This document shows positions 1 through 19,594 of a stretch of 64,000 nucleotides of DNA, piece by piece (positions within the stretch are counted from its first letter, which is position 1; the number at the start of each line of letters is the position of its first letter). This DNA comes from Saururus chinensis (lineage: Eukaryota; Streptophyta; Magnoliopsida; Piperales; Saururaceae), in contig CP141140.1 in assembly GCA_035235625.1 (NCBI GenBank), forward strand, positions 55,423,351 to 55,487,350. The letters are read 5' to 3'. Made by a program: the position numbers and the translations under genes. The notes below the pieces were generated by a model. The model saw nothing but the letters and a program-made list of their open reading frames with translations, did not search any database and was not told where the DNA came from.

Positions 1-487
1 CGCAACCACCAGCGCTTGGTTGGCGCTTACATGGTAAAAACTAACACCACTTTGGGAGTGGGTTGATTTGATAATTAATTTTTTTAATTATTTTTAAAAT
101 AATATTCTTATTATTAACTATAAAATTAAAAGGGGATATAAAACTATAGTTTTTTTCATATTGCCTAGCCAAAAAATAAAAATTTTCATATTCTTTGAAT
201 TTTAAACGGAAATATTATGTGACCTATTTGTGGACCAAGATGTCCTTAAGTTTTTACTATATCAAGTTTTAATGTAGAGAATAATAAATTACCACAGGAA
301 TAGTGTTGCGCCGTTCTAGTGTGCTGGTAGTCATTAGCGGAGAACAAAACTTGCCGACAAGAGCTGACTGGCGGTGACTCACCAGTGAGTCGATGAACAA
401 GAAAAAAAATATTTTTTGGCACCGCATATGCTATTGAGTACTCCAAAGACTATATTTTATAGAAATGGTCTGTCTTTCACACCAATC
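1..487. other. left edge, no gene recognised
   Basis: AT-rich sequence upstream of the transposase pseudogene. I see no recognisable exon, promoter or terminal inverted repeat. The left end of the Mutator-like element may lie here or outside the window. No inverted partner for any part of this stretch was found near the proposed right end around 18.7-19.2 kb. Confidence 0.4.
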
Positions 488-933
488 ATGGATATAATCG
501 GTATTTGCATCCATTATAATGGAGAGGTAGGCAATTACGGCGTGTATATTAGAATGGCACGATTGATGAATATTCATCCATCAGTGAGCTTTAGCGAGCT
601 GCTGGGGCAAGTCAAAGCACGACTTTCCATCAAGGACAATGTCAGTTTGAAGTATCTAATTACATCCTCCCAATCATCCATGATATGTAAATTATAAGAC
701 GATGAGGACCTTCAATCAGTGTTCTATATTCATAAGAAGGTGAATAAGGAGGTGTTATCATTGTATGCTGAGATGAAACAGCCCGACAACGATGATAAAT
801 CACCAGCATCCTCCGTAGAAATGAACTAGACAGTCAATAGAGCTAAATCACCTGTCGTAATAGCTCATCGCAGTTCTAATGTCGGATTTCATAGCAGATT
901 CAATGAAACTCAATTCACCTTTGAAATTGTCAG

Positions 934-1229
934 GTAACAATGAATCTTTTAGATTATACTCAATTAGACTCTTTTGTGTACTCGAGACATATCGTGTTGA
1001 GGGTAAATCATATCATGTGAATTAATAAACACAATGTGTAATATATTGCATTGGTGATTACACGATATACACATGCGATATAGCAATTATGAGTTGCAAC
1101 GTAGATATAATAACACGACATACATTCATGTCATGGTTTCGATAACACATTTTGAAATGTAAGCGTGTTAACAGAATACACAATGTCAACTGATGGTACA
1201 TTTTTTTAACATGATAATGTGCAATGCAG
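934..1229 (+). repeat. intron 1 of transposase, palindromic motif array
   Basis: This is a GT-AG intron between inferred exons 1 and 2. It holds copies of the element-wide motif: atcgtgttga near 991, attacacgatat near 1058 and taacacgaca near 1111. The flanking exons lack it. Confidence 0.6.
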
Positions 1230-1452
1230 ATTAGGAGAACCGGGAAACTTGCCCTCAACAAATCCATGTCAATCATCTTTCACCAATCCAATAAGTACAT
1301 AACCTAAAATAGAAGTCAATCAGAATAGATTAGAGGAATTGTCGCCAATGATGGGTGGGACAAGGACTTCATTTAATAACTACGAACTTCCATACATCCC
1401 TTGTAATTATGACGGTGGATGTTGTTACGTCCAAACCAAGACTATGAAGTAG

Positions 1453-2793
1453 TCTAATTCGGATTTATTTTTTTACTTGTCAACTGTAGTAAACAAGGTC
1501 GATCCGTAGAGAAAGCCTTGTGTGACAAAGAAAACTATTACGAAGAGAATAGAATAGAGAAGGTAAAATAAATAATAAGAGACAATCAAAAAAAAACTGA
1601 TAAGGCATCGGAAATCCACTTGTAATAATTCTCTAATGTATATTTGATTCAAATGATAACTCAATTAAGATCAAATGAAAATTCGTCTCAATCAAAAAAT
1701 TTATCTCTTAAAGACCTTTGAAATAGAACAATCGTAATTGATTGTTTACTACGTGAAAGCATTAAATATATAATCACATGGAATTATAAGCATTTGACGC
1801 ACCTTTTGTCAATGCAGAATCAAATAATTATATATATTATAAACTCCTTAAATATGAAACATTAATTTAAAATGATAAATAACTTATTTGAATCAAAATA
1901 GCCATTAAACATCAAGTACAAGCTTCATCCCCGGCCTTAACTAAGAGCTTAGAAAGTCATTACACAAAACTAAAATAAAAGCTACAAAATGAGAGAAGAA
2001 AATAGGGGAAGAGAGCTCCCAAGATGAGGTAATTATGTCTCTATCACATCCACCCCTCTATTTGTAGGAGGAGAAAGGATTGCTTCAAAGGGGAAAGTCT
2101 AATCATATCTTCAGATTCATTTTGATTAATTATTTAATTGGTTGCTTCTTTGACAATGATTAGATTCTAAATCAATCAATGACTTATTTAGCAAATAAGT
2201 ATTTTTGAGTATTCTTTTAGTTATCTAATCAGCCTCATTATCTTTCCTTATGTGTATCAATCACAACCAATGAAAATATACTTCATGTGCTGGCCTCATG
2301 TTAGTTAACTAGTTGTCCCTTTACATGTTGAATTCGACACATAAATCTTCGGAATTGTAAATTTCTTCCTGAAATAACAATTGTAATCACAGAAGTCTTC
2401 TTTCCAATGCCACTAGAATCTTCTCAATCTGAATTGTACAAAGAACAATATGGTTGAAATACAAAAGTTGTGTCAATATGTCCAAATAAGTTTCTTCCCG
2501 AATTTAGTTCTCTTGATGCAAATCTCAAATCCAACGGGTCCAAAAGGTTGTGTTCAACCATTCCATGCATGTTTAGACCATTAGGAGTCCATTCTTAACT
2601 TTCAAATAGCTTTGGGTAGATGGGCTTTACTTCCTCTTCTACTTAGATCCTGTTAAAGCCTATTTAGACATATAAACTCAATTAAGGTCCAACTAACCTA
2701 TTCAAAACATAAATAGCCCAAATAAGCAATGAATTAACACAAAATAAGATTGCAATTTAAAATGTAGAAACATTTAATTGATCATTATTTCAG
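1453..2793 (+). other. intron 2 of transposase, no motif and no gene seen
   Basis: AT-rich sequence of 1.3 kb between the exon ending near 1452 and the acceptor AG at 2792-2793. Unlike the other introns of this element it holds no clear copy of the ATCGTGT/ACACGAT motif. That may mean a different origin, such as a later insertion whose ends I could not identify. No coding similarity was recognised. Confidence 0.45.
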
Positions 2794-3424
2794 TGCATCA
2801 GTGGACAAGGCAAGGAAGTTGAAAATATTTGGGGGGAGGATCTGTGGTACGATAATGATATAGTTAACATGGAAAGTATGTTCGACCACGAAGAATTTGG
2901 AAACAATGAGGCTCCTAGTAACGTCGGCGTTGAGGTGGAGGCAGATTGGGATACAGTCAATGATTTAAACATGTTGGAACCGAATATTGGTGAAGGCAAA
3001 CTAATGACGGGCAACTTGCAAGCTAAGGATTACTAGAAGCTTCTCGAATTGGGTACATGTTTTCTAAGCATGTTGCATTTCAAGAGGGTCTTGATTGACT
3101 TAGCAATAAATGAGAACTTCACCTATTGTGTTGTGGATGAAAACCAGAATACGTACGCTACAAAGTGCTCCAATGATTCTTGTAATTGGTACATTAGGGT
3201 TTTAAATATAGGAGATCATGTGACTGTCACGAAGTTAATGCTGACTCATTCATGTGGAACCCAAAGGAAGTCAACTGACCATCCCCAAGCATCGCACCTT
3301 TGGATAGCGAGAAAATGTTATGGCCTCTTTAAAGATTCGGTGGACATTACACCTAAGAGCATAGCAAGTTATATTTCGAAGAACTAGGGCATAACTGCTA
3401 ACTACAAGAAATGCTGGTACGCAG

Positions 3425-3674
3425 GTAATGAATGAGAAGAATTGAAGTGTTGATTTAGTGTCACAATATGTTAGTCTAGTGTGTTATCGTTTACATGCTT
3501 AAACTATAGTCGGAATATGCACTCACATGGCATACATCAATATCGTGTAACCATAAAAATGACCAGTCATCATGTATGGATTCCGAACACACAAAAACAT
3601 AAAATGTCGTGCAATTAGGAACACGATGTAAGCCGGTGTCGTATAACATTTACTAAATTATATTCGATCGTGCA
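3425..3674 (+). repeat. intron 3 of transposase, palindromic motif array
   Basis: GT-AG intron between the zinc-binding exon and the catalytic exon. Motif copies include tatcgtgtaa at 3541, acacgat at 3621 and ggtgtcgtataac just after it, in both orientations. The exons on either side have none. Confidence 0.6.
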
Positions 3675-4624
3675 GGTAAAGCTCTGACTGATTTAATAGA
3701 TGGTGACCCAAACAAATCCTACTGATTACTTCCTGTTTACAGGAGGCAGATAGAATATATAAATCTAGGAAGTGTAGTTGTGCCTATGATATTCCCAGGC
3801 CTATGGGTGGGTACGATTTCAAAAGAGTATTCTGGATATGTGGCCCCGTTACGAGAGCTTTTAGAACAACCTTAAAGTCGTTGCTAACGGTTGATGCAAC
3901 TTTCTTGAAAGGAAGGTATCCTAGATAGCTATTAATGGCAACTGCACTGGAAGGGAACAATAATATGTTATGCGTTGCATTTGCAGTGGTTGAGAATGAG
4001 TGCGAGAAAACTTGTTGTTGGTTTCTTAAGTTGCTTAGAAATCATCTATACTCTTATCCTCCAACCAAGTTGGATACAATCGTTTCTGATAGATAGAAGG
4101 GATTAACAAATGTTGTGAAGAAATTTTTCCCATCTACACACCACAGATATTGCATCTGTCACATGGCAACAAATATGCTGGACGATTTCAAGGAAAACTA
4201 CCTAAAAGATTAGCTCCATGTTGCAGCCGAAATGTTCAAACAAAATGTATACAATGAAACAATGAATAGCATTAAAGAACATAATCTGGAAGCATATGCT
4301 TGGCTAAATAAGATAGGTTCGGAGCACTGGGCCAATGTACTATTTCCCGGGAAAAGATATGGGACCCTCAGCTCAAATAGGTCTGAAAGTGCAAATGCAA
4401 TGTTCAAAAAAGCCAGATTGATGCCTATAACTCATTTAATTGAGCACATGAGGGAGCACACAATGACATTATTTGAAAAACATCAAACAGATGGTCAGAA
4501 TATGATGGAAGAGTTAACCCCATTTGCCTGAAAACACATCGAAAACAAGCTAGAAGAAGCCAGGAATGTGATTGTATTGCCTGTGTCAATGTATAAATTC
4601 CATATTAACTAACTATATCACCAG

Positions 4625-4827
4625 GTACATTGCATTTATACAGTGATGTACATAGCGTGTGTTAATTTATGCATGAGGGCTTCATATTGTGTTAGTTTAA
4701 ACACGTTAGTTTCATTCATCATGTAAGTAGATACGATTTTATTTAACGATCGTATGACACATCGTGTAATCGAGAACACGAGAAAGTCATTTATCATGCG
4801 CTCATACTCACGATATTTTCTTCACAG
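4625..4827 (+). repeat. intron 4 of transposase, palindromic motif array
   Basis: GT-AG intron between the catalytic exon and the SWIM exon. It contains atcgtgtaatcgagaacacg at 4761-4780, an almost symmetric copy of the motif, plus partial copies near 4733, 4748 and 4810. Confidence 0.6.
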
Positions 4828-5329
4828 GATGTGGTAAACTTGGTTGATCATATCTGCATATGTGGAAAGTTTTAACATCTGGGTCTACCATATAAGCATG
4901 CAATCGCAACAATCAATAATAGACACTTCTATGTGTCTGAGTACTGTGAAAGATGGTACTCTATTAAAATGTATAAATTGACCTATCGACAGCCCTTACA
5001 CCCAACGAATGATCGGCACCAGTGGGCACTGGTTAGAGTTATGCCTACATTCAGCCCACCTATCCCTCAAAAGCAGTGAGGGCGTCTACAAAAAAATGGA
5101 TAGAGTCACAACCACCTCTCAAAGCCCCATGAAAATGTGGAACATGCAATCAGTTGAGTCATAACCGCAAATGATGTACTAGTGCACAAAGGGGCCCCCC
5201 CAATGTGGTAGATGTCCCATCGATAAGCCGAAGGAGGTCAAATAATAGCATATGCAAATGGCGTAAGGAAGGGGAGCATTGATTAGGCTTACCTTTTCCA
5301 CCCTCATTCTTCAGCTGAAATTTTTTGTA

Positions 5330-5485
5330 TATGCATCGTGTTATCAACAACACAAAATATGTAATTAACATGTTCCTAAAAACACGAAATGTTGTACATA
5401 GGGTATACTCTATAGTTGTATCGTGTAATCAATAACACGACCAAAAGGAATTATGTGTTACTAATTACACAATAATATCAACCGA
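5330..5485. repeat. palindromic motif array, 3' spacer of transposase
   Basis: Several close copies of the motif lie here: gcatcgtgttatcaacaaca near 5335 and tcgtgtaatcaataacacga near 5420 (a 20-bp near-palindrome), then gtgttactaattacacaat. This is the clearest place to read the unit as CGTGT-(A/T)ATCRAT-AACACG. Confidence 0.65.
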
Positions 5486-5587
5486 TTATTAATTCTTTTG
5501 TCAAGAGTGTCCATGTCTTACACGATATTGGTCATATCATATGTTCAAACCCACAACAATTCCATGATCGTAATGACCCAATTCTCA

Positions 5588-5690
5588 TGGCATTATTCCC
5601 GAAGCATCAATACCTTCAATAACCTAGCGGTCCATACTCATGGCATTATTCCCGAAGCATCAATACCTTCAATAACCTAGTGGTCCATAA
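5588..5690 (+). repeat. 50-bp direct duplication
   Basis: The stretch starting catggcattattcccgaagc is present twice, at about 5588-5637 and 5641-5690, with one base difference (tagcggtcc versus tagtggtcc). It is a recent tandem duplication in the MULE spacer. Confidence 0.85.
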
Positions 5691-5699
5691 CTGTCTCAC

Positions 5700-5703
5700 T
5701 TTT

Positions 5704-5741
<38 letters not shown>

Positions 5742-5812
5742 TATATATATGTGTGTATGTACATATATATACATATATACATACATATATATATATATAC
5801 ACATATATTAGG
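5700..5812. repeat. AT microsatellite
   Basis: (TA)n and mixed (TA)/(TG)/(CA) dinucleotide tract of about 110 bp, interrupted by gtacatatat steps. It is likely length-variable. Confidence 0.9.
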
Positions 5813-6539
5813 GTTACGGTTTGCAGAATGCTCACTCACTCATTCTTCGCAAAGACGGGTCATTCGGGAGATTGCTTAAGCGGCGGCTGGTGAATCGGCC
5901 TGCCATTTGATACGATCCTCACCTATATCTGGGCATGACTCACTAGATGGTGATATATCAATGTCTCCAATGATCCATCGCATTCACGCCCTATTCGATA
6001 AACGGCGATTTAGCAATGACTTTCTCACGACTCCAATAATGAATATTTTTGCAGTATATCTGAGAAGGTTGCAAGGAGATCGCTCGCACAGTGATGTTCT
6101 TCGCGGAGATGTATCATTTAGGAGATTGTTGTAGCGGTGGCTAGTAAATTGGCCCTCCATCGGATAGGGTCCTCACCTATATCCGATAGCGGGCATCTTT
6201 CGCTAGACGATGATATATCAATGTCTCCAATGATTTGTTGCATTCGCGCCCTATTCACTAGATGGCGCCCTATTCTTGAATTGATGGGTCCGAGAGTCTG
6301 CAAGGAGATTGCATGCCAACTTATCACTGGTGACGAGACGAATTGTTATTTTCTTTGTATTTTTAAAGTTCTATAAAGATTAGTTTTTTGGATGTAATGA
6401 ATTAATAATAGTTATATTTTTCTTCCCATTGAAAGTTGTCTTTCCCGTATATTGAAAGCAATAATGCGACGATTGTCCACTTACTAACACACTATCAATA
6501 TTGGTTGTACGTTCAAACATACGATGGCGCAAAGGTAAT

Positions 6540-6800
6540 ATTAAATTTTGATAATAATTGAAACATATATGCCTTAACACGATATGTTCATATATCGTGT
6601 TACTGACTATACGACAATAATACACTCACATTTTTATTTTCACACGACTTTCGTGAATATCGTGTTAACATGAACACGATGAGTTATTAGTCCCGTTTTA
6701 TGATCTAGTACTATGATAATGAATATTTTTGCTAGACGTGTGATCAATTACACGATATTGGTCATGTCGTGAAATCGAACACACGACACTTGCATTACTT
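6540..6800. repeat. palindromic motif array in MULE spacer
   Basis: Dense copies: aacacgatatgttcatatat followed by cgtgttactgactatacgac, then gaatatcgtgttaacatgaa with cacgatg, and cgtgtgatcaattacacgat near 6741. Half-sites face each other every 15-25 bp. Confidence 0.65.
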
Positions 6801-7399
6801 TAACCACCCAATTCCCGAAGCGTCCCCACAATTTATGGGATTTCAATTACATTAGAATCACCAATTTGTGAGGAGTCATTTCCAATTTCCAATTACACTA
6901 TATATGGAATAATTTTCATATATATTTAACGGTTCATATCCCTCGCATCCTGCCTATACAAATAGAAGTGACCTCTGGGCTTACCTAATTCGCGAAGAGC
7001 ACGAGATGGAGTCTGAGAGTCTGCAGGGAGATCGCACACCCACTGATCGCTAGCACCAAGACGGAGCCTTTGGGACATTGATATAGAGCCGGATGGTAAT
7101 TCGTCACCTTCAAGGGCGCGGTCCTAACCAGCCTCTGATGAGGGGCGATTTACTACCCAGTGTTATATCAATGTTGTGAATGTTTTGTCACAATTGAACT
7201 GATGGGTCCGAGAGTCTGTAGGCAAATCGCACGCCCACTGATCAGGGCACGATTCACTACCTTCATATTGTTATGTTATTTGTATTTATAAAGTTCTGTA
7301 ACTATTAGTTTGTTGGATGTAATGAATTACTAAAATTTAAAGGAAAATATTAATAACACATATCTTTTTTCCCATTGAAAGTTGTCTTCCTGTATATTA

Positions 7400-7625
7400 A
7401 ACTATATCAGCTTCGTGTAAAAACAAACATGATACGTTAAACTATTATTGTAGCTCAATATTTCTGATAACACGACCTAAACTATTATCATAAGATCGAT
7501 GATACGATGCCCACCAAGTTATTCAAAATAATACGTCGGCATTCCGAATGCACAACATTGTTACATAACGTATTATCGATTACACAACAGAAAAACTGGC
7601 CATACGTGTTAATTACACGACAAAG
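7400..7625. repeat. palindromic motif array in MULE spacer (degenerate)
   Basis: Weaker copies of the same motif, such as gataacacgacc near 7466, cgtattatcgattacacaac near 7568 and cgtgttaattacacgac near 7604, lying between copies of the ~150-bp repeat. Confidence 0.5.
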
Positions 7626-8219
7626 ACATTCATTATATCCTTGGTCAAACCGTCATGCTCGCTCCTATCTCACTGTATATTAGGATTAGGGTTCAGGGAC
7701 GATAGAACATTCTCATGAGGCCAAACCGAGCCTATCGGTTCAGGGACGATAAACATTCTCTTGCGTTCAAACCATTTTGTTCATTCCTGTCTCACTATAT
7801 ATTAGGGTTAGGGTCGTGCTCCGCCGGTGTGTGTTCGGTGCCAAGAAGGATCATACGGGAGATTGTTGTATCGACAGCTGTGAATCGACCCTCCTTTGGA
7901 TACAGTCCGCATGTATATCTGAGGGAGGGCAAGATTCGCTATATGGCGATATATCAATGACTCGAATAATACGTCGCATATCATTGGGGTTGTTTCATGT
8001 TCTTCGCGGAGACGGATCATACGAGAGATTACCTTAGAGGTGGATGGTGAATCTGTCCTCCATCGAATACAGTATTCATCTATATCTAACAGAGGATTCG
8101 TCTCACTAGACGGTGATATATCAATGTCTCTAATGATCCGTCACTTTTGCGACATATAGGTTATCATATCATCTAAAATAGTCATCCATAACCATATTTC
8201 ATTTGGTTTGATTTTTGCA

Positions 8220-8561
8220 ACTTTCATGTGATGATCTTCATGTATACACTAACATGACCTAATAGGCGATTGTTTCTTTGATTACGTGATAACACAACCT
8301 ATTACAAGGTGGTGTGTATGCGATAACACAACCTAATAGACGATTGTGAGAACTTCCATGCGATTGAATATATGCGTACATTCGTTTCTCGCTTTCGAAG
8401 ACACAACTTTGGTACAAATCGTTTGATTGAACATACGCCAGCTAATCGAAGCGTGTATGACATTGGTACATGTATTTCTATTCCATTAGATAATTACAAA
8501 ATAATTGGTTGAACCGATAATTTGTCAGTTAATTGAAGCATGAAAGAATACTATTTTCTTG
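8220..8561. other. spacer between transposase side and Ulp1-like gene
   Basis: Non-coding spacer with faint relatives of the motif (gattacgtgataacacaacc near 8280, gcgataacacaacctaata near 8322). The first 80 bases contain an imperfect direct repeat around acaacctaatagacgattgt. No coding signal was seen. Confidence 0.45.
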
Positions 8562-9152
8562 TTACAATTCATCTGTACTCAGATCAAATTCCTCATCAAT
8601 TCGGGCTCGAAGTATAGTAGCGCTGATCATCGGCCTAACCAAGCCTGTTATCTCGAGTTGTCTAAAATCTGGCTGAATGACACCCCCTTCCAGTTTTGCT
8701 ACGTAGTACATGACGAACAAACCACAATCTTCATTTGTTTCCTGGTATGGGCATTTGTTGATCTTAGTCATTGGCCACAACTGAGCACCCTTTATCTTAA
8801 GTGCCTTCTCCATTCCATTGGCAACATGTTTCCTGACATTGTCCACCTTGGCGAAGTGGTGGCCATGTTCACCCTTTAGAGGATTGTACCATCTAAATCG
8901 CTTCTCCCTGCAGCGGACAATAAGCAAGAGAAAGTGGCCCTTGACGTAGACAGGAACGAAACCGCTCTCCGTGTTAACATTCATGCCTCTCAACAATATG
9001 CCAGAGAGTTTGCCCTCCTTCTCTGCCAGCCCTTCCTCCATGCCAATGTTAAAATAGTGCTGAATGGCGAACCGACCGAAAAAATAATTGGGGTACCTGC
9101 CTGGATTTCTCACATTGCATTCATCAAGAAGTTGGAAGAACACGTCTATGAC

Positions 9153-9455
9153 CTACAACAAACCAAACATGTTAGTAATGACACAATAGTCAACAGATAG
9201 TGCCTTCGTCTATACGCTGTACAACTATATCTTATTATCGATCACACAAATATGTTATAGGTCATGTATTAATTAACATGCTAGTTTTACTTCAGCCATT
9301 ATAGTTGAAACTTAGCGTATTATGAAAACAACAATATGAGAAAAGGTCATCTAATCGATAAAATGATAATTAATTGAACATCTTAGTCAATTATTCAATC
9401 GTTTGCTTGATAACACGATAGAGGTTAATACGTATGAGCAATGAAATGATATTAC
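9153..9455 (-). repeat. intron of Ulp1-like gene, palindromic motif
   Basis: The GT donor on - is the complement of 9454-9455 and the AG acceptor lies just above 9152. It contains degenerate half-sites such as aacacgataga near 9413 and tcgatcacac near 9239. It separates the exon ending in a MNE-like sequence from the peptidase exon. Confidence 0.5.
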
Positions 9456-10854
9456 CTCATTCATTATGCACTCCTACTTTAACAGAGATAGGTAATCGGT
9501 GTAGAGGAGTGTTTCTATGGGCCCGGACTTGTATGGGTTCGACAGAAATTCTGTGATAATTTCCTTATCTGACTCCTTCTAAATCTCCATGTGGAACACT
9601 ATCTATGTGTCAAGATAGTCCTTCGCCCGCAGACTGAGCTCCACCTTATTCGCAATATCGTTCTTATTTGTCTTATTCATAGTATCATCTTCGACATCTA
9701 TCACATTTCGGATACTCTCCATTACTTCCGCATCAACTGGAGGAGTATCCAGTAAAGTTCTTTCACTGGAGCCAGTGATTGAAACGGCTGGTTCCGGGGT
9801 GGGAGAATTTGGATGTGCCGGACGGCCAATGTATGGGCTAGGGACTGATGCCAGAGGATAATCGTCTCCAGGTTTTGTAGTCTGGGCAATGTATCCAAAC
9901 TTGGCTAACTTCTCAATGTAGCTGCTGGTAAACTTCAGCTTCTTCGATCCCTCACTGCCAGGAGCATATTTCTGCTTCAGTCTTAGTTTTATTATTTTTT
10001 TTGGAACTGCTCCTTTATTCGCTTCCTGGGTTGCTTCCAGTCCCTTCTGGTGGTGTTCCAGTTGCATGACCTCTTGAGGTTTTTGTTCGACCTCCCGAGG
10101 TTGATCCGAAACCTCCATGTGTTTTGCCGGTCCCTCTCGGGGTTGTTCCGGTTCCACAATCTCCCAAGGTTGTTCTGGTACATCCATGTTTTATATCGGT
10201 CCTGTAATATCCCTAATTTTCCCGAGTTTTGAAATTTAAATACGTGGAAAATATGGTGTTTGGCCTATTGACATTCTTATTAGAATAAATTTCTCCCTAG
10301 ATAGAATTTGGTAATTTTATTAGAAAGTAGACAGAAAGAGCTTCGAAACGCCACCAAGAACACGCAAATCGGAGTTCGGATGAGGGAGATACGACCGTTT
10401 GAAGTTGAATATATCGTGCAGGACCCGTTTACCCGCTTTAGACTGTATTTGGCCTATTTATGTCATTTTGCGGGCCCGGTTATTTATAATTCCGAAATTA
10501 ATTTTTAAGGTCCCAATAAGGTGACCTAATTAGGGAGGATTACCCAAATTTTAGATGGATTAGGAACCCTAATCCCCATGTTTATAAAAAGGCCTTCTTA
10601 GGGCACAATGGAGGGGGGTCTTTGGTCGGATTTGGGGGAGCTTTTAGGACGGTGAAGGAGATGAGGGAATTCTCCGGCGAGACTCCGGCGAAGCGTTTGC
10701 GGCGGTGGATCGACGACAACTCGGCCATTGAGGTTGGATTTCGAGTTGAGATTTCATAGATTTGTAAATTAGAAGATAGACCGTATTCGTAATTGACATG
10801 AACAATAATATCTGCAATTACTATTCATGCAGTTTTTTTAAAATAGTTTGTATT

Positions 10855-11385
10855 TACTGTTCATCTGCCGACCGGCCACCGGCCGACCGCTGGTGGCTGA
10901 ACCCATGGCTGGAACAGCATGCCAGTTCTGGCCTTGGCTGCGACTGCCAGGGATACTTGGCGCCGGCGACTGTGGCTTCTGCCGCCGCCACACAGTAATA
11001 AAAAAACAACAAGACACTGTCGCTGGCCGCACTGGCCGAGGCTGTGCCGGCCATGGCCGTGCCGGTCCCGGTGGTGCCGGCCCAGGCCATGACGACCCTG
11101 GACGCACCGGCCTGGGCCGCTCTGGCTTTGGCCACGGCGTTATCGCCGCCTGTTAAAAAAAAAGTGGCCAGCTTTGTGGCCGCCGGCCGGACACCGGACG
11201 GCAGCAAGACCGACCTTGTCGGTTCCACCGTACTCCGGCGATCCGGGGCCTGTGTGCCACCCATACCTTTGCTGTGGGGGTGGCAGCGCCACCAGAGGCC
11301 GGAAGGCCTCTGGCCGGATGCGGGGAAGACGACCCGCATTCTGGGTCATCGACCTGAACCAAACCGATTCGGGTTGTAAAAAAAA
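10855..11385. repeat. GC-rich low-complexity block inside E1
   Basis: About 500 bp of GGCC/GCCGG-rich sequence within otherwise AT-rich LTR-like DNA. It is open in several frames on both strands only because stop codons are rare at this composition. A comparable block lies at 34,740-35,170 in the related element. It is not a gene. Confidence 0.7.
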
Positions 11386-13904
11386 AAGAATTGAGGGGGG
11401 AGTGAACCGGGTCCGGTTCATGGGGATAAAAGTGTCAAACAAATTCTAAAAAAATACTCATGTACCTGGAGAGGCTTAGGACTATTCTGACCAAGTTTTC
11501 GCTTGGGGAAAAATCCCAGAGCTTGTGAAATGACCTTTTTACCCCTGGTAGTTAAGTTATCGTGTGAAAATCACTTACCCAATTTAGAGGCTCCGGTTCA
11601 GGGGACTATGAGTTGATCTAAAAATTGAGAAAATTCTCAGTGAGAATTTAATGGGTAACTAAATTATAGGCTAGACCTTTTGGTAGGGAAAAATCTCAGT
11701 GAGTGGGTAATTAACCTTTTTGCCCTAGGTTTAATCGTAAACTGTTAAATAAACCTGTGTCGGTTCAAGGGGTTCACAACCCCGTCATATGCCAAGAAAA
11801 TTACACAAAGTCCATGAAGTCAAGTAGTATGCTTGAGTTCAATTTTGGACCCATTAGATGTCATTAAGGCCTTAAACCAAATGACAAAAATACCCTTATG
11901 CAAATCGGCCCATATTCACATGGATGCTATTAACGGGCCAATGTAATACTAAAACATTTTGAGAGTTAAAGACTTACCTGAGTGCAGAGAGGACTTTATC
12001 CAATGTTGGATAATTACTCTAATGCCCTTAGGTGCATTACGACCAGTTTAATAAAGATTTATTAAGATAACCCAAGGAGGGTTAGGGCACGAGAGCTCGA
12101 ATGATTCTTATATCATTAATGAATTCTATTATTGATATTATGATATGCTTAAACCTGTGTAGTTCTTATGGTTTATGTTGTTCTTTGTTTCGATTTTTGA
12201 TATTGATGTTGTGATAGTAATTTATCACTATCTTTAAATTATTGAAAGAATAATTGTTTGGGGTTTGATAGCTTTGGATTGGGAAAGAACACCTAATTAA
12301 GATAAAGACTAAAATACCTCAGAGGGGTGTGAGACTAGTTCATACAGTGAACAAAGCCTTAGACCTAATGATTTGCCTTGGTTGATGAACCGATGGCATG
12401 TCTCAAGTTGCAAACCTTAGTCTAGAAGGGACTAATAGGGTTTGGGATAGTCATTCAGAATCCTGGCTTATAGATGAGCAAGATAGGGTTCAGAATGGTT
12501 TCCTGAGTTTTAGCTCTATTGAGGAGCCGCTGATTTGACCATGTAGTTGCACCTCCCCATTGGAGGGAGTTCTTTGTGAGCCGGGCTCACCGCAGATCTA
12601 TTGAGGATCTTTTAGTGTACACGCAATTAGGGTCGCTGACATCCTGCTTGGTTGGCGTCTCTGACCACTTCTATTCAGGTGTAGTTGTGGGTCATGCCCT
12701 TCCACTCCGGTTAGGTCTTTATGGGCTAGGTTGGGAGATGGCACTTCCTGGTGGATTCCAGGAAGTTTCGTTGTCATTTGTCACTTAGGTTGACATCTGA
12801 TGAGTCTGTCTGTCATTGGGATTAGACGAGAATATTAATTATCAAACAATGGTTCGAGAGATAATTAATAACATTGATTGATATTGTTTGTTTAATTAGA
12901 ACAAGTGGAACGATTAAAGGACTTGCATAAAATGTAGGTTGCTTGAAAATACTTAAGCATTGCATGTGTAATGCTATGCTTCTTAGCATAGTGTAGTATT
13001 AGGTAGAACTACGTCTAGATCCAATCTTGTTGGAAACATTGGAGATGTTATCTGATGAGTACATAGGTAACTAATATCGGATGATGTTGGCCCGATCCGA
13101 AAAATATTAATAAAACCTTTTGTCCTTTGGAAGCTCTTCTCCTGTAGGCGGAGATGCTCCATTGTGGTTGTTGTTTGGTTTGCTTTGTTGCAGATTCTCC
13201 AGGCGATGACATTGAGACCAAGGCAGGCGAGCATAAGAGGTTTTTGCGTTTCTGCAACTCTGGTACGTTTGTGTACCTCTATCATGAGAGTCAACTTGTT
13301 ATTTATTTTCAGACGGGTGACAGACTTGTACTTAGATAGATGAGCTGGTCTTTATGAATTTTCTGTAACGACCCATTTTTCGGTTACGCTTAATCCGGGA
13401 GGGTTAAGGGTAATTCGGTAATTTGAGATTAATGTTAAGGGTATTCATTAGATAAAATACCCGTAGCCAGGTAGATCTTGGCATATCGAGCATAACGATT
13501 CGAAGAACGCGCGAAACGGAGGTTGGGACCGGAAGTAATGACCTCGGGAAACGTAGATAATAGGTGGGACCCACTTGGAAATAGTATGATTTGCTGCTTT
13601 AAGTGGGTTAGTATCGAAGGGCTTGTCAATACGAGTCCAACGGTATGAAGAACGCGCGAATCCAAATCCGGGGTAGGGAGATACGCGCGTTTGAAGATTT
13701 GATTTAAAAATAAAAAAGAAAAATTAAAATATGTGGTGCGCGCGCGACCGCGGCGCGCGACTTGCGCTCGTCGCGCTGCGCATGGGCAACGTGAAACGGC
13801 GGGTGCCGCCGCCCGAAACTGCAGCGCCGCCATTTCTGGTGGCACGGCGCCGCGGTTTCGGCGGCTCGGGGGCTATTTATACCCCCATTTTCGCTTCATT
13901 CTGG

Positions 13905-14425
13905 ACCAGAACTTCTCTACCCCTGTTTCTGACCGTTCTGAGGCCGATTAAGGCCATTAAAGACCCGTTTCCTACTAAATCGAGTATGCTCTACGCAATG
14001 GAGCTGCCCGTTCTTTGAGTTGGAGACCGTATGATGAAGAAACGTCCCAAGACAAGAGGAGGTTATGTCCGTTATCTTCATGCACCAATGAACTTCATTT
14101 TCTCTGTTTCTGGCCATCCCAACTCCGATTTAGTCAGTCCAAGAGGCGTTCTTGACTAAATCGAGTATGTTCTACGTGGTGGAGGGTTCCGTTTTCTGAG
14201 TTGGCAATCGTATGAAGAGGAAACGCCCCAAGACAAAGAAAGGTTCTACCCGTACCGACAAACTTTGTTTTCTCTGTTTCTGGTCATCCCAACTCCGATT
14301 TAGTCAGTCCAAGAGGCGTTCTTGACTAAATCAAGTATGTTCTACGTGATGGAGAGGTCTGTTCTTTGATTCGGCAACCATATAAGGAGGAAATGCCCCG
14401 AGACAAGGAGAGGCTCCACCTGTCA
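13905..14425 (+). repeat. ~170-180-bp tandem repeat, about 2.8 copies
   Basis: Anchor gagtatg(c/t)tctacg recurs at 13982, 14163 and 14333; anchor tctctgtttctggycatccc recurs at 14101 and 14271. The spacing is 181 and 170 bp. The block lies just downstream of the TATA-like sequence of E4. Confidence 0.8.
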
Positions 14426-14742
14426 TCCTCGAGCAACGAACAAGAAATATGGGCCCGGAGCAAGACAGGATTTTGTCCGAAGTTGCCAAGCTACATCAAG
14501 AGAAGTAATCCAGACTAGGGGAGGTTCTGTCCGCCACTCACGGGCACAGGAAACGAGAAGAGTCTCTGGCAAGGAGAACATATATACGTAGTCTTTCGAT
14601 ACAAGACGAGGAACGTATGGAGGCTAGAGGAAGCTCCGTCTAATATCTTCAGATCTGAAGGGGAGGATGCTCGTATGAGCAACTCCGTATACCGCTACTA
14701 TACGAGACATAAGGGCAGTAAGCAACTCTGTATTCCGCTACT

Positions 14743-15355
14743 ATACCTATATGCTATGTATCTATATGCCATGCTAGGTGCCTATATGCTATGCTATGTG
14801 CCTATATACTATGCTATGTGCCTATATACTATGCTATGTACCTATATGTCATGCTATATGCCTATATACTATGTTAGATGCCTATATGCCATGCTAGGTG
14901 CCTATATGCCATGCTATGTGCCTATATACTATGCTATGTGCCTATATGTCATGCTATGTGCCTATATGCCATGCTATGTACCTATATGCCATGCTAGGTG
15001 CCTATATGCTATGCTATGTGCCTATATGTCATGTTATGTGCCTATATGTCATGCTATGTACCTATATGTCATGCTATGTGCCTATATGTCATGCTATGTA
15101 CCTATATGCCATGCTATGTGCCTATATACTATGCTATGTGCCTATATGTCATGCTATGTGCCTATATACTATGCTATGTGCCTATATACTATGCTATGTA
15201 CCTATATGCCATGCTAGGTGCCTATATGCCATGCTATGTGCCTATATACTATGCTATGTGCCTACATACTATGCTATGTGCCTATATGTCATGCTATGTG
15301 CCTATGTACTATGCTACGTGCCTAGATGCCATGATGTATACTTACATGACATGTG
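14743..15355 (+). repeat. 20-bp minisatellite, about 30 copies
   Basis: The unit is cctatatgccatgctatgtg, repeated in exact 20-bp register from 14761 to 15320 (28 units) with frayed ends. Most variation is at bases 8-10 (gcc, gtc, gct or act) and in a few bases near the unit end. Since 20 is not a multiple of 3, three units make 60 nt, and all three forward frames stay open across the array, giving Met-Cys-Tyr-Leu-rich frames of 123-197 codons. These are not believed to be genes. Confidence 0.95.
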
Positions 15356-16231
15356 TGGTCTCGCTCTAGGGTGGAGCGAGGCGTGTAATTTGTGTTCTTG
15401 GTCTCGGCTCAGTGATAGAGCGAGATATGTGTATGAGATTTTGATCCCGCTCTGTGGTAGAGCGAGATGTACGATTCCGTTAATTTATTAACTTCCGCTT
15501 GACTCCGATATATGATGAGTGTTTGTATACTCTGATTAAATATTCGGAGCTATGTATTTTATACGTATGATTTTGTGATGTTTGTAGTATGTAGTAGCCA
15601 TTAGGCAGAACTACGTTCGGATCCGATCGTATTGGAATAATATCCAATACGTACGTAGACAACCAACGGCAAGGCAACGTTGGCCCGATCCAAATCATTA
15701 TAATAATATGTTTTATCTTGTTTTACATGCGACGAACTATGAAGCTTCGTCGTATGTACGTGTTTGTTACAACCTAAGTCTACGTACGAGGAAGCCTTAA
15801 AGCTCCGTAGTGCGTAGACGAACGTTGTACCTCTCGCACTCAGACGATGATTCCTGGCTCAAGGAAAGAGAAAATTTCCTATTAGTGATTTGTGGGCCCG
15901 GCTCGGGTCGGGTCGTTACATTTTCAGACATTAAATAATATCATATGATTTGATATACGTATTTGTGAACCCCAATTATCATGACTTGGATATTTAATCG
16001 AAGGGTTTATTTTGTATTTAAAGAAAAAAAAATTTCTTGCTTCGTGCTATTTAAAAATACTTTTAAAAATTCGGGTCGTGACAAGTCCCTCTCAAGGTTG
16101 TTCCGGTTCCACGACCTGCCAAGGTTGTTCTTCGACATCCCGGGGTTGTTCGATGACCTCCAGTGGTTGATCTTCGATCTCCCGGGTTTGCTCCAGGTAT
16201 TCTGTATTTATTTTCGATAAAAATCTAGTTA

Positions 16232-16500
16232 TTACGGTCCTTTGCAACTTCTAACCAATCTTCTTCTTTGGTTTGGTGGCAACTTTTGGTTGCCATTTCT
16301 CTGTTTTTCAAAAAAGTAATCAGTCGTGTTAGTACATACACGATAAACGATTATATCATCTTTTACATTACACAATAAAACTACATATCGTATTGATGGA
16401 AAAATGAATAATCGTGTTAACAATCACACCACCACAAACAATTTGTTTTCTTCAGTAACATCTGCTTCAATGCTCGTGTGATCAATGACATGACCATAAT
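16232..16500 (-). repeat. intron of Ulp1-like gene with palindromic motif
   Basis: Non-coding stretch between low-complexity exons. It has gtcgtgttagtacatacacg at 16323-16342, aataatcgtgttaacaatc near 16408 and ctcgtgtgatcaatgacatg near 16474. Confidence 0.55.
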
Positions 16501-17338
16501 GTAATCATTGTTCTTAATGCATGACTAGGTAGTCTATCGTGGCCTCGGTTATATGATTATCCCTTTTCAAAACACGATACATTGCAACATCGTACTTACT
16601 CAAAATGAATCTCTCATCCACTGGCTGAGGGACTTGTACTGGTTGATCTTGGGGGGCAGATGGCTGGCAAGCTTCTCTGAATTTTGAAGCTCTTGCCTTT
16701 AAACGAACCAACGGGGATCCTTCAGTTCTTGGAGGAGGGATTGATGCTTGGGCGACTTCCGGCTGAGGGGGTTCAGGCGGTTGTTCTGTCTCCTATTCAT
16801 CAGGGGGTTGCATATGTTCTATGAGGCTAGTTGTCACCTTGAGATCATTCTTAACACGCTGGAGTGCAGCTTCAACATGCTCCGTGTTCCATTCCCGCTT
16901 ACCGTAGAGAACATCCTTCTCCAAAACAACTTCACAAATTCCCGTCATGACATCAACTAGCATGACGAATGATTCAATGACATCCTGGCCAAAATCTACA
17001 TTCCCAGACATCTCGCTGTGGAGGGCGTGGGGGGTCTCATTGGCTAGAAAGTATGTGTACCTGCCTTCTTAGCCTTTGGGGTCGCTCTTTGGCCATCCAT
17101 CAAGTGCGCCTCTTTGGCAATTGGTGTGATGCGCTTAATAATTTGCAAGTCTGGCTTCAGCCTTATGAAGACATCCTCGTACCACTTCCTCATCCGGTGA
17201 TGAGCTAGAATCTTCTTCCTCTCCTTTTCGTCGGCCGGGTCAAGTTTATAGGCCTTCTCCACGTCGCTCAAATACACCTCAGTCTACATGGAGCACCACT
17301 GGGAGCTCATATGGATGTATGCTCATAAAACCATACCT

Positions 17339-17673
17339 GGCAAACAATACAAAAGAATATAGTCATTAGTGTAAATGGTCAATATTTTTAGTATGACAAA
17401 TTAGTAGTGTTATTGATACCACGCTTTGAGCCATATCGTGTGTCCGGTAACATGATACATACTGATTGTCTAATGTCCTACACACGATATTACACTTAGT
17501 CATGTTACTGAGAACACGATATGTCTAAGTGCATGTTATATGTCGTATGTTTGATAACACAATTGAGTTCATATCGTGTGACCGATATGGCGATATTTAT
17601 CTGTTCGTAAACATATTGTGGCATTAGCAAGACGATATTAGACTATGCATGGTATAAAACATTCGAGCGTTAC
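17339..17673 (-). repeat. intron of Ulp1-like gene with palindromic motif array
   Basis: The donor on - is the complement of 17672-17673 and the acceptor AG is next to 17338. Copies include ccatatcgtgtgtccggtaa near 17431, acacacgatattacac near 17490, gagaacacgatatgtc near 17511 and catatcgtgtgaccgatat near 17570. Confidence 0.6.
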
Positions 17674-18419
17674 CTGGAGCACTAATGAAGCCCCAATGAG
17701 AATTCTGGCCGTGGCGGAACACTCATCCTGTCTGCTCATGATGTTCTGGTGGGTTACTGATATGCCTCTCATCAACATATCATGTACAACACCAACCAAA
17801 TTGTAGCTCCCAATGACCGACATGTCATATAAGTAATCACACAAAGTTAGGGATACGACTCTGTTGCTCTATGTGAATAACATGAGGACACCCATGTGCA
17901 CGATTGTGAACCGTGCTAAGTCGTCATCTGAAATAGTCCTTGTTTTGTCAGACACTTCTTTCAACATTTCTTCAAGTCCTGTCTTCTCCGGCTGCTTCCC
18001 TTGGAAGAACTTCTTGTGGAATTGCCCCTTGACTTGGGTAGCCTTCCCCTCTCTACTCTCCAATTTACATGGGTTCTCTTTCCCCCTCAAACCTGTGATC
18101 ATAGCCACTTCAGCCATAGTTAGGGGTAGTCTTTTACCCTTTATGTTAAAGACCTCCAGTGAGACGTCCCAACAATCACCAATGAGTACATCCAACAGCG
18201 GCTTGGAGACGATGATGGGTTCACAATCATATAATAGGTAGAACCTAGTCTCCACCAATATGGCCTTCCATCCCGGACGTGAATTTACAAAGTCTTTTGA
18301 TAGATGCAGTCCAGTGGGGAAACTATTCGTTCCCAGACCCAGTCTTCTTCCGTAGATTCTCTTCTTCTTCCCTTCTGCAGCCTTCACTGACTCCGCCATT
18401 TAATGTAATACTCTAACTT

Positions 18420-18700
18420 TATGTCTGCAAAATTGGATAAATATATGTCAATCAACAATAGGTCGTGACCATAATCAATAGCCACATTGATTTACATTAT
18501 CTAACTAACTTGTATTTATATGATAAGTATATTTATCGTGTGCTCGAACATACGCTACGAGGAAGTTGCATACACGATATCATAATGGTTGAATATCGTG
18601 TTTCCAGCGTCTTATCGAACACATGATATATGACTCATCGTCTTTCTGACCCAATGATAGTCTACTTCGGCTGCCTATGTCGTGTGCTCTCATACACGCT
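18420..18700. repeat. palindromic motif array upstream of DUF1985-like exon
   Basis: Copies: ttatcgtgtgctcgaacata near 18533, gcatacacgatatcataatg near 18568, gaatatcgtgtttccagcg near 18591, and tcgtgtgctctcatacacg near 18679. This is the last place the motif is seen and is taken as the right side of the MULE. Confidence 0.55.
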
Positions 18701-19594
18701 AAATAAAAAATTATGCATACAAATATCCGAAATGCCTTACCACGAAACTGCCGCTACTATTCTCCGAGCCAGATTAACCACTCGTTCGGCCACTGCTTTT
18801 CTACAAAGTTTACTCATTTACCTGGATCGCCGTAAACCCGAACCCTCGCTATAAAGAAGAACCACCTTTAGGGTGTATAGTTTCAAAACTCAACTTCGCA
18901 AACTCGTTCCAAAACTTGTTCTTTGCAAACTCGTTCCAAAACAAAAAAACTCTAATCTTCCATATCTGGTCGAATAGGTCGTAAAATCTTCTCCCACACT
19001 GTATGAACGGTGCTCAACCAAAGTACTTTGCAATCGGAATAGAGTTTTAAATTGGAATAAGGTTTTCAATCAGAGGAATCACCGGCGTCTGAAGTTATAT
19101 GCCAATAAATGCAACTGTGAGGATTTTACACGATATAAAATTCTACCTCTGGTTAGGGGTATTTTAGTCCCAAATTTACCTTATATCATGTTATTCCATT
19201 TTTTATGGTATTTTCTTTTAAAATCCAAAAAATATAGAAATTTTTATTCTTTAACAAAGTAATATAGAAAAAATTCATAAAACTAATATACCCTATAAAT
19301 TATTTATGTGCGTCATCTCATAAAATCTGAGAGCGTGATACCCGGGCCTATAGATACAATCACACGTAGGCTCTACATTCTTGCTAATACAAGTAAAACA
19401 AAACCCGAACAAAACCCGATCTATTAGAGTGGGGTTGGTTACAACCGAAAGTGGCAAACGAATCTCAGAAAGGACCACTTATTTACCGCAATTAAGAAGA
19501 ATCCGGGATTGGGAGTACCAATAATTTATCCTCAACGTCACGATTGTTAAGAAAGTGGTAGTCGAAGTAGCGGGGATTAGTGTGGAAGTCAGTT
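18700..19594 (+). promoter_or_regulatory. upstream region of the CCR-like gene
   Basis: No coding exon was seen. A short direct repeat (cttcgcaaactcgttccaaaac then ctttgcaaactcgttccaaa) lies at 18894-18944. The region sits between the right side of the MULE and the start codon of the reductase at 19595, so the promoter probably lies here. I could not point to a convincing TATA box or a specific cis-element. Confidence 0.35.

Follow-up and report, generated by a model that had tools for sequence, protein, structure and literature searches.

The window (the whole 64,000-nucleotide stretch of Saururus chinensis DNA that was analysed) contains a MULE at 147-19276 that, in the sequence alignment, is bounded by terminal inverted repeats (TIRs) and by a 9-bp target-site duplication, ATAAAACTA, flanking it on both sides. 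Homology of two further copies, A and B, to the window element ends near the same limits. The element carries a gene for a transposase as well as exons encoding DUF1985 and Ulp1 domains, and two insertions are nested in it (Table 1). The transposase gene shows a stop and a frame change near 3034 in the reading frames of its 2801-3384 exon region; a Pfam scan of separate pieces of its catalytic region gave no match, and one piece (4214-4528) has at least 150 matches in the genome. The DUF1985 match of the window copy, at 24 bits, falls under the Pfam cut-off of 35.1 bits, and the orthologous exon in copy L014 scores 36.2 bits, above it. Judging by strand and order, the DUF1985 and Ulp1 exons appear to form one gene. 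Exon limits were taken from open reading frames, Pfam matches and splice motifs of the copies, and were set with the motif positions already known. Sites co-occur with this DUF1985-Ulp1 and transposase pair. Of the 59 DUF1985 copies examined, 23 have a transposase copy less than 20 kb downstream of them on the other strand (0.68 expected). A structure predicted for DUF1985 from 23 aligned copies had a mean pLDDT of 38 and was unusable. Elsewhere in the window, a Pfam scan of six other open reading frames identified a CCT gene and an Epimerase-family gene and left four without a match; host exons are not uniform in GC3, with values that include 0.84 and 0.32.

Table 1. Features of the element and its palindromic sites (site positions are centres; family-trained and window-trained are the two matrices described in the text)
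Feature	Position	Strand	Basis or detail
MULE, including two nested insertions	147..19276		target-site duplication on both sides, TIR alignment
Left target-site duplication	138..146		9-bp repeat
Right target-site duplication	19277..19285		9-bp repeat
Left TIR	147..214	+	~68 bp, roughly 75% identical to right TIR, counted by eye from alignment
Right TIR	19209..19276	-	alignment
Nested insertion, motif-free	1410..2800		missing from copy B
Nested insertion, motif-free, splits DUF1985-Ulp1 exon	10203..16132		missing from copy A
PB1-like ORF (weak), 5' side of transposase gene	389..694	+	PB1 E=0.014, below cut-off
Transposase exon region, MuDR DNA-binding domain at 3037-3384	2801..3384	+	PF03108 E=1.7e-8
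Transposase catalytic exon region, assigned by position, frame-broken here	3700..4545	+	ORFs
Transposase C-terminal exon region, assigned by position	4876..5200	+	ORFs; homology to copy B
DUF1985-Ulp1 gene, exon 1 (DUF1985)	17667..18399	-	PF09331 E=4.1e-5, 24 bits
DUF1985-Ulp1 gene, exon 2	16600..17366	-	limits from splice motifs in aligned copies
DUF1985-Ulp1 gene, exon 3	9606..10202, resuming 16133-16220 beyond nested insertion	-	ORFs, copy A comparison
DUF1985-Ulp1 gene, Ulp1 (C48) protease exon	8565..9150	-	PF02902 E=1.6e-8
Cluster, transposase gene intron	1041..1156		1056, 1109, 1141 window-trained; 1056, 1141 family-trained
Cluster, transposase intron	3474..3632		3489, 3553, 3617; family-trained 3489 and 3617 at score 15, 3/3 at score 12
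Cluster, transposase intron	4682..4819		4697, 4772, 4804; family-trained at score 15: 4772
Cluster 3' of transposase exons	5331..5562		5346, 5378, 5431, 5463, 5547; family-trained misses 5463
Cluster, intergenic	6558..6792		6573, 6605, 6670, 6746, 6777; family-trained misses 6573
Single palindrome, intergenic	7563..7593		7578; matrix searches
Cluster 3' of Ulp1 exon	8233..8444		8248, 8280, 8322, 8429 window-trained; family-trained only 8429
Array, intron before Ulp1 exon	9162..9455		eight centres from 9177 to 9440 at intervals of 31-32 or 52-53 bp, window-trained; family-trained at score 15 only 9409
Array, intron 2	16319..16562		16334 to 16547; family-trained: 16366, 16547
Array filling intron 1	17400..17641		17415, 17446, 17510, 17553, 17584, 17626; both matrices
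Array upstream of DUF1985 start codon	18531..18705		18546, 18617, 18648, 18690; family-trained

The non-coding DNA of the element carries many copies of a 24-bp palindrome with the consensus TATCGTGTTATCGATAACACGATA, which the first-pass annotation had described as confined to that compartment. The pattern CGTGT(N6-10)ACACG, for which it had proposed a count by compartment, occurs six times in the 64 kb (4763, 5422, 6661, 6737, 16325 and 18681), all six in annotated non-coding parts of the element. Among its seven example sites, those at 4761, 5420, 6741 and 16323 are full, those at 6593 and 17511 have one mismatch, and 18568 is only a half-site. On both strands together, ACACGA is found 37 times in 1-19000 as compared to 7 times in the other 45 kb.

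A palindromic matrix was trained on the DUF1985-gene flanks of 29 other copies in the genome and on nothing else. The transposase half of the window element serves as the independent test; its DUF1985 half shares homology with the training copies. At score 15 this family-trained matrix yields 28 palindromes in the native non-coding DNA of the element (6,977 bp): the transposase half accounts for 15 of them (4,966 bp; mean 0.04 in a dinucleotide model) and the surroundings of the DUF1985 exons for 13 (2,011 bp; mean 0.02). Exons (4,832 bp), nested insertions (7,321 bp) and flanks (48.9 kb; 44,715 bp right, 4,146 bp left) have no hit. Lowering the score to 12 gives 18 in the transposase half, 17 in the DUF1985 half and 2 in the right flank, with exons, nested insertions and left flank still at 0. 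A second, window-trained matrix, partly fitted to the window sites, finds more there than the family-trained one: 56 at score 8 in its training range and 43 at score 14, with 3 of the 56 (693, 4253 and 4442; scores 9-12) in an exon or at an exon edge. Genome-wide there are 5,768 palindrome matches, against 1 for a reversed control. The compartment-limited enrichment is confirmed, and is stronger than first noted; the near-absence from exons, the halt outside the element and the excess over random expectation in introns all stood. The spread along 18 kb did prove element-limited, but the element is larger than had been proposed, and its stretch from 10.2 to 16.1 kb is a motif-free nested insertion.

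The restriction to non-coding DNA extends to other copies. In ten other transposase copies, 40 of 41 sites at score 12 map by alignment to introns and one to an exon, and the trio centred at 3489, 3553 and 3617 is kept at aligned positions in 7 of the 10. At score 15 the window-trained matrix finds 287 sites in the flanks of 29 other DUF1985 copies and no site in their 528-bp exon; when the letters of 30 loci are shuffled, it finds one. The intron 1 array is also present in a 30-copy alignment, half-sites can be read from the sequence just inside the TIR in aligned copies, and palindrome order and spacing are largely kept among copies.

Spacings between palindromes fall into classes of 31-32, 42-43, 52-53, 63-65, 75-76 and 84 bp, with a period of 10.6-10.8 bp; six settings gave R values of 0.76-0.88. 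This helical phasing was not reached by any of 5,000 sets of spacings drawn uniformly at random and holds without the 30-34 class; two non-autonomous elements show it too, as does copy B, which has many positions in common with the window copy. Tandem duplication of a 31-32-bp unit is unlikely as the sole cause of the arrays, as it would leave the 42, 53 and 75 classes unaccounted for. Half-site columns outside CpG are conserved above shifted controls, with a modest signal (fractions 0.019 and 0.022). CpGs are retained only slightly better in sites than in other non-coding DNA (63% versus 57%), and most present copies therefore seem to be methylated. Covariation between half-sites was sought in 43 sites with four column sets, and same-site pairing never exceeded cross-site pairing (permutation fractions 0.70-0.86); the earlier suggestion of a hairpin-RNA source is left unsupported, since the two halves do not co-vary.

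The palindrome follows the DUF1985 clade. At score 15 it is absent from 30 of 30 retrieved loci of other DUF1985 clades, and the same genome has a second DUF1985-Ulp1 MULE family that lacks the palindrome and has an array of its own. This clade-2 array consists of the octamer AAAACTRK, found upstream in 28 loci in a single orientation (343 on the plus strand versus 1 on the minus, with 12.6 expected) at 1-33 copies per locus. In the one clade-2 locus studied, a MULE, the domains DUF1985, C48, MULE, SWIM and DBD_Tnp_Mut were recognised, and the Ulp1/C48 domain of a clade-2 relative has E=3.8e-12. Two site clusters inspected elsewhere in the genome, chosen because they were clusters, each prove to be an element of ~2.35 kb with related TIRs, one holding 25 sites and the other 21; five of their ORFs have no Pfam match. 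These elements consist of TIRs plus an array, a combination that may thus be sufficient in cis. In the non-autonomous element L079, internal direct repeats of 176-241 bp are composed of sites, indicating that duplication helped that array to grow.

We consider that the palindromes are probably the targets of the element's own DUF1985-Ulp1 protein, acting in a sequence-specific anti-silencing system of the VANC type. A protein-binding repeat, close to the transposase-binding repeat that was among the readings offered at first pass, is favored, with the DUF1985-Ulp1 protein in place of the transposase as best candidate binder. Given the two-fold symmetry of the site, this protein would probably act as a dimer; it would bind arrays of the 24-bp site along one DNA face, both in introns and in the spacer and promoter, with adjacent dimers mostly 3-8 helical turns apart. 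Binding would keep array-bearing non-coding regions free of silencing marks, or make them so, and the element and its non-autonomous relatives could thereby be expressed and move. The identity of the binder, its dimerisation and a loss of DNA methylation are all suggested by the Arabidopsis precedent. Points that speak against this reading are the small excess of CpG retention in sites, the modest conservation signal, the single exonic site among the 41 of the transposase copies, the low DUF1985 score of the window copy and the departures from known VANC21 targets, besides the possible role of the transposase.

The strongest rival, though an unlikely one, is that the sites are internal or subterminal binding sites of the transposase through its MuDR-type domain, serving synapsis, transcription or anti-silencing in the manner of TnpA sites in CACTA elements. 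Lying in the same element and co-segregating with the DUF1985 gene, the transposase could itself be the binder; non-autonomous elements retain TIRs together with arrays, half-sites occur just inside the TIR, and maize MURA lowers TIR methylation of non-autonomous copies (excerpts of PMC10398659). Yet the sites are spread through introns and spacer along ~12 kb of native element instead of clustering at its ends, a spread for which transposition would have no need. That DUF1985 clades with another motif fit the VANC precedent does not discriminate, since the transposase differs too. Quite improbable is a host factor, whether transcription factor or silencing component, whose binding the element exploits or suffers: sites do stand upstream of the DUF1985 start codon, as promoter elements would, but where examined they are nearly restricted to one element family (in the 44.7-kb flank, no hit at score 15 and two at 12), another DUF1985 MULE of the same genome has a different array, and a motif that tracks element clades is not expected of a host factor. 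Least probable, by a little, is a satellite-like or hairpin-forming repeat lacking any binding protein, multiplied by local duplication and kept from exons by coding selection, a relative of the intron-colonising satellite first proposed: the L079 repeats speak for it, but site positions are largely kept among copies, the 42-, 53- and 75-bp spacings are near whole helical turns without being multiples of the 31-32-bp unit, the halves do not co-vary, and the nested insertions are uncolonised.

If the DUF1985-Ulp1 protein is indeed the binder, the system would be an independent and experimentally tractable example of sequence-specific anti-silencing to set beside that of Arabidopsis. It would offer a clearly defined palindromic operator, genomic sites by the thousand and its own test of helical phase; the two DUF1985-Ulp1 MULE families of this genome, whose codes differ, would make a natural comparison for the DNA-reading part of the protein. 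It is possible, and we suggest it tentatively, that the architecture is a distinct VANC-like one, in which a dimeric DUF1985-Ulp1 protein loads cooperatively on one helix face at palindromic operators, and each family of one genome has a target code of its own (in one, a 24-bp palindrome with 10.6-10.8 bp phasing, which also serves non-autonomous elements of TIRs plus array; in the other, an 8-bp one-orientation array), perhaps in a plant outside the eudicots. VANC-type systems are said to have arisen in eudicots.

The first-pass annotation knew of no description of such a motif, overlooking the VANC/VANDAL system. According to the excerpted text of Hosaka 2017 (PMC5735166), the only DUF1985 literature we found that appears to bear on the palindrome arrays, the DUF1985-containing VANC proteins of Arabidopsis bind short motifs located in introns and in intergenic and terminal regions of VANDAL elements, the non-coding parts of these MULEs, and cause hypomethylation. 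A literature search found no paper joining MULE, DUF1985, Ulp1 and transposase. As in the VANC21 and VANC6 systems, a MULE transposase and a DUF1985-bearing protein share one element here, and a dense, short, clade-specific motif lies in non-coding DNA, mainly outside exons (compare excerpts of PMC5735166). The VANC21 target in those excerpts is a 9-bp motif, YAGTATTAY, of uniform orientation within tandem repeats that change fast, unlike the 24-bp palindrome, with its largely kept order and spacing; the clade-1 sites lack that same-orientation, rapidly changing form, and the clade-2 octamer does have one orientation. TIRs and a Ulp1 domain also set the element apart from the described VANC systems; absent or degenerate TIRs are a VANDAL feature, and the present element has TIRs of ~68 bp together with a 9-bp target duplication. 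Helical periodicity, present here, is a further likeness, in that Sasaki et al. (2022, EMBO J) reportedly describe it as a determinant of VANC specificity. A table of PMC6446971 lists 46-174 bp for its VANDAL group, and some members are said there to contain TIRs, so TIR absence is no strict VANDAL feature. A 2026 review (excerpts of PMC13317346) describes KIU-carrying VANDALs as recognising specific motifs in each other's non-coding DNA. Kaonashi (KIU) genes, Ulp1-domain genes in non-TIR MULEs of Arabidopsis, and the Ulp1-carrying MULEs of melon, grapevine and rice resemble the present system in that a C48/Ulp1 domain is found in a second MULE gene; from these the present element differs by its ~68-bp TIRs, its 9-bp target duplication and its palindromic target. 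A last likeness is to TnpA of CACTA (En/Spm) elements, also an element-coded protein with many short sites. TnpA sites lie near the termini, whereas those described here run throughout introns and spacer, and the transposase superfamily differs; TnpA activates Spm, and this activation correlates with demethylation (excerpts of PMC10398659).

The palindrome CGTGT...ACACG, which the first-pass annotation had described as confined to the introns and spacers of a Mutator-like element (MULE), does prove to be nearly confined to non-coding DNA of the element. From the motif words of that annotation we iterated a symmetric matrix, with consensus TATCGTGTTATCGATAACACGATA; to avoid circularity, it was retrained without window sites, solely on 223 sites from the DUF1985-gene flanks of 29 other genomic copies, and then run on the window. 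At score 15 this family-trained matrix finds 28 palindromes in the 6,977 bp of native non-coding MULE DNA and none in the exons (4,832 bp), the nested insertions (7,321 bp), the right flank (44,715 bp) or the left flank (4,146 bp); for the two native non-coding parts, sequences drawn from a dinucleotide model give 0.04 and 0.02 matches on average. Lowering the score to 12 gives 35 native non-coding sites, 2 in the right flank, and none in the left flank, exons or insertions. The training copies are homologues of the DUF1985 half, which leaves the 15 sites found at score 15 in the transposase half as the independent part of this test. The window-trained matrix retrieves more sites (43 at score 14), including some that the family-trained matrix misses at 15, such as most of the array at 9177-9440; it places 3 of 56 sites, weak ones, within or at the edge of exons, whose limits we set with the matches in view.

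The MULE has mutually alignable TIRs of ∼68 bp and a plus-strand transposase gene (MuDR DNA-binding domain, Pfam E 1.7e-8), and the window copy is frame-broken and interrupted. Judging from their common strand and order, the DUF1985 and Ulp1 exons probably form a single gene. DUF1985 scores 24 bits in the window copy, below the Pfam cut-off of 35.1 bits, and the orthologous exon of another genomic copy (L014) scores 36.2 bits, above it. The latter exon (L014:1309-2028) also has a weak second match to the plant mobile domain PF10536 (E 0.0015), hinting that the two domains may be related to each other.

Features of the window (plant DNA; G000:C1:55423351-55487350; genome of 516 Mb in 11 contigs) and of two loci fetched from the same genome (L079, L080); copies A and B are other genomic copies of the MULE
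Feature	Position	Strand	Basis or remark
Mutator-like element	147-19276		ends placed by target duplication and TIR alignment
Perfect 9-bp target duplication ATAAAACTA	138-146 and 19277-19285		both sides of MULE
DUF1985 exon	close to MULE right end	minus	Pfam
Ulp1 (C48) exon	8565-9150	minus	Pfam
Nested insertion	1410-2800		missing in copy B (copy comparison)
Nested insertion	10203-16132		missing in copy A (copy comparison)
Array of a 20-bp unit, x29	14751-15333		in the large nested insertion; several frames open
Inverted dispersed repeat pair	12286-13198 / 28763-29663		84% identity across 0.9 kb; one member within nested insertion
Reductase-like host gene (Epimerase family)	19571-21564		starts ∼300 bp past MULE right end; first exon GC-rich, GC3 0.84
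Host exon with CCT motif	56102-57091		resembles a TOC1/PRR clock gene
L079 element	L079:1006-3379		2,374 bp; 9-bp target duplication with one mismatch
L080 element	L080:about 510-2857		repeat TTATCTTTTT at both ends, read from sequence

The same compartment bias recurs in other copies of the family, as the first-pass annotation had proposed to check. For the DUF1985 exon the genome contains at least 150 matches (150 scored out of 1,969 initial candidates), and in 29 of the 149 other copies the window-trained matrix at score 15 finds 139 and 148 flank sites (287) and none in the exon, as compared to a single site in letter-shuffled versions of 30 loci. Ten other transposase copies (of 149) hold 41 sites at score 12, of which alignment maps 40 to two introns and 1 to an exon; in 7 of the ten, the three first-intron sites are all present at the same aligned positions. 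An opposite-strand transposase copy is present downstream, at no more than 20 kb, in 23 of the 59 DUF1985 copies examined (of 149), as compared to 0.68 expected. Allowing up to 3 mismatches, the 24-bp pattern occurs at 5,768 places in the genome, as against 1 for its reversed letter order. From these pattern matches we fetched two clusters in which the sites are near-perfect, chosen for being clusters, so that two of two says nothing on frequency. Both turned out to be elements of ∼2.35-2.37 kb in which TIRs resembling those of the family accompany a dense array of phased palindromes, 25 in one and 21 in the other. Among the best six blastn matches per target against the window copy, copy B and the DUF1985 loci, both show TIR and site similarity and neither shows exon similarity; five ORFs of these elements have no Pfam match.

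Other DUF1985 families in the genome carry other motifs. Our Pfam search yielded 30 additional DUF1985 loci out of 150 matches scored, grouped by eye into 28 of clade 2 and 2 of clade 3, and the palindrome of the present family (clade 1) is absent from all 30 at score 15. The clade-2 proteins share 22-24% identity with the clade-1 query, and the 1.3 kb upstream of their DUF1985 domain contains the octamer AAAACT[AG][TG] 343 times on one strand and once on the other, against an expectation of 12.6, the usual distance between copies being 8, 16 or 24 bp; 2 octamers lie within the domain, and the downstream flank has 27 on one strand and 4 on the other. One 17-kb clade-2 locus (G000:C8:3448000-3464999; L068, L048, L067) is a MULE with DUF1985, C48, DBD_Tnp_Mut, MULE and SWIM domains, whose inwardly oriented octamer array (AAAACTAT/AAAACTGG) occupies the non-coding ends and one intron, being found upstream, in the intron and, in reversed orientation, past the transposase, with one octamer in an exon. 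Upstream (1.3 kb) of the two clade-3 loci (L049, L062) are long repeats with shared words, e.g. ACTGATA and TGTGATA, recurring at intervals of ∼200-350 bp.

Neighboring clade-1 sites in the window are mostly 31-32, 42-43, 52-53, 63-65, 75-76 or 84 bp apart (exceptions: 24, 58, 71 and 80). In six settings, the best period comes out at 10.6-10.8 bp (R 0.76-0.88), a phasing not equalled by any of 5,000 sets of uniformly random spacings, also when the 30-34 class is omitted, though the uniform model is generous to phasing because sites of one element may be duplication-related; a tandem unit of 31-32 bp does not produce the spacings of 42, 53 and 75. Copy B, which has many positions in common with the window copy, gives a period of 10.8 (R 0.82), and for the two non-autonomous elements the periods are 10.9 and 10.8 (two spacings >100 bp excluded for L080), with a poorer fit for their classes outside 30-33 alone (11.4, R 0.64, n 14). 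Sasaki et al. 2022 (EMBO J) reportedly found helical periodicity to contribute to the specificity of VANC proteins and assigned the VANC system a eudicot origin. Half-site columns outside CpG are modestly more conserved than circularly shifted controls, both upstream (0.941 versus 0.888, fraction 0.019) and in intron 1 (0.884 versus 0.838, fraction 0.022). CpG decay is nearly equal, with 63% kept in sites and 57% elsewhere, and a search for covariation between the two halves of the site found none.

Parts of PMC5735166 describe Arabidopsis VANC proteins (DUF1985) as binding short motifs in non-coding DNA of their own VANDAL family, with an influence of motif density, different motifs in related families, and methylation loss accompanying binding; part of PMC10398659 has RdDM targeting the same non-coding regions. 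Since the array shares VANC traits, we consider it most likely to be the target of the MULE's own DUF1985-Ulp1 protein, and the two-fold symmetry of the site suggests that this protein may bind as a dimer. Binding would protect or reopen the MULE and its non-autonomous relatives, with methylation loss as the probable outcome. The main rival has the transposase binding the palindromes, in keeping with maize MURA, which also reduces TIR methylation (PMC10398659, in part).

The array, with the DUF1985-Ulp1 protein as its most likely binder, would be a variant of the known VANC-type targets, which it resembles in location, density, clade specificity and DUF1985 partner. VANC targets are one-orientation motifs with fast tandem turnover, whereas the clade-1 MULE has palindromes whose positions are largely stable. 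Further differences are its TIRs and the presence of Ulp1, probably in the same gene as DUF1985; Ulp1 in a MULE gene is already known from Kaonashi according to part of PMC13317346.
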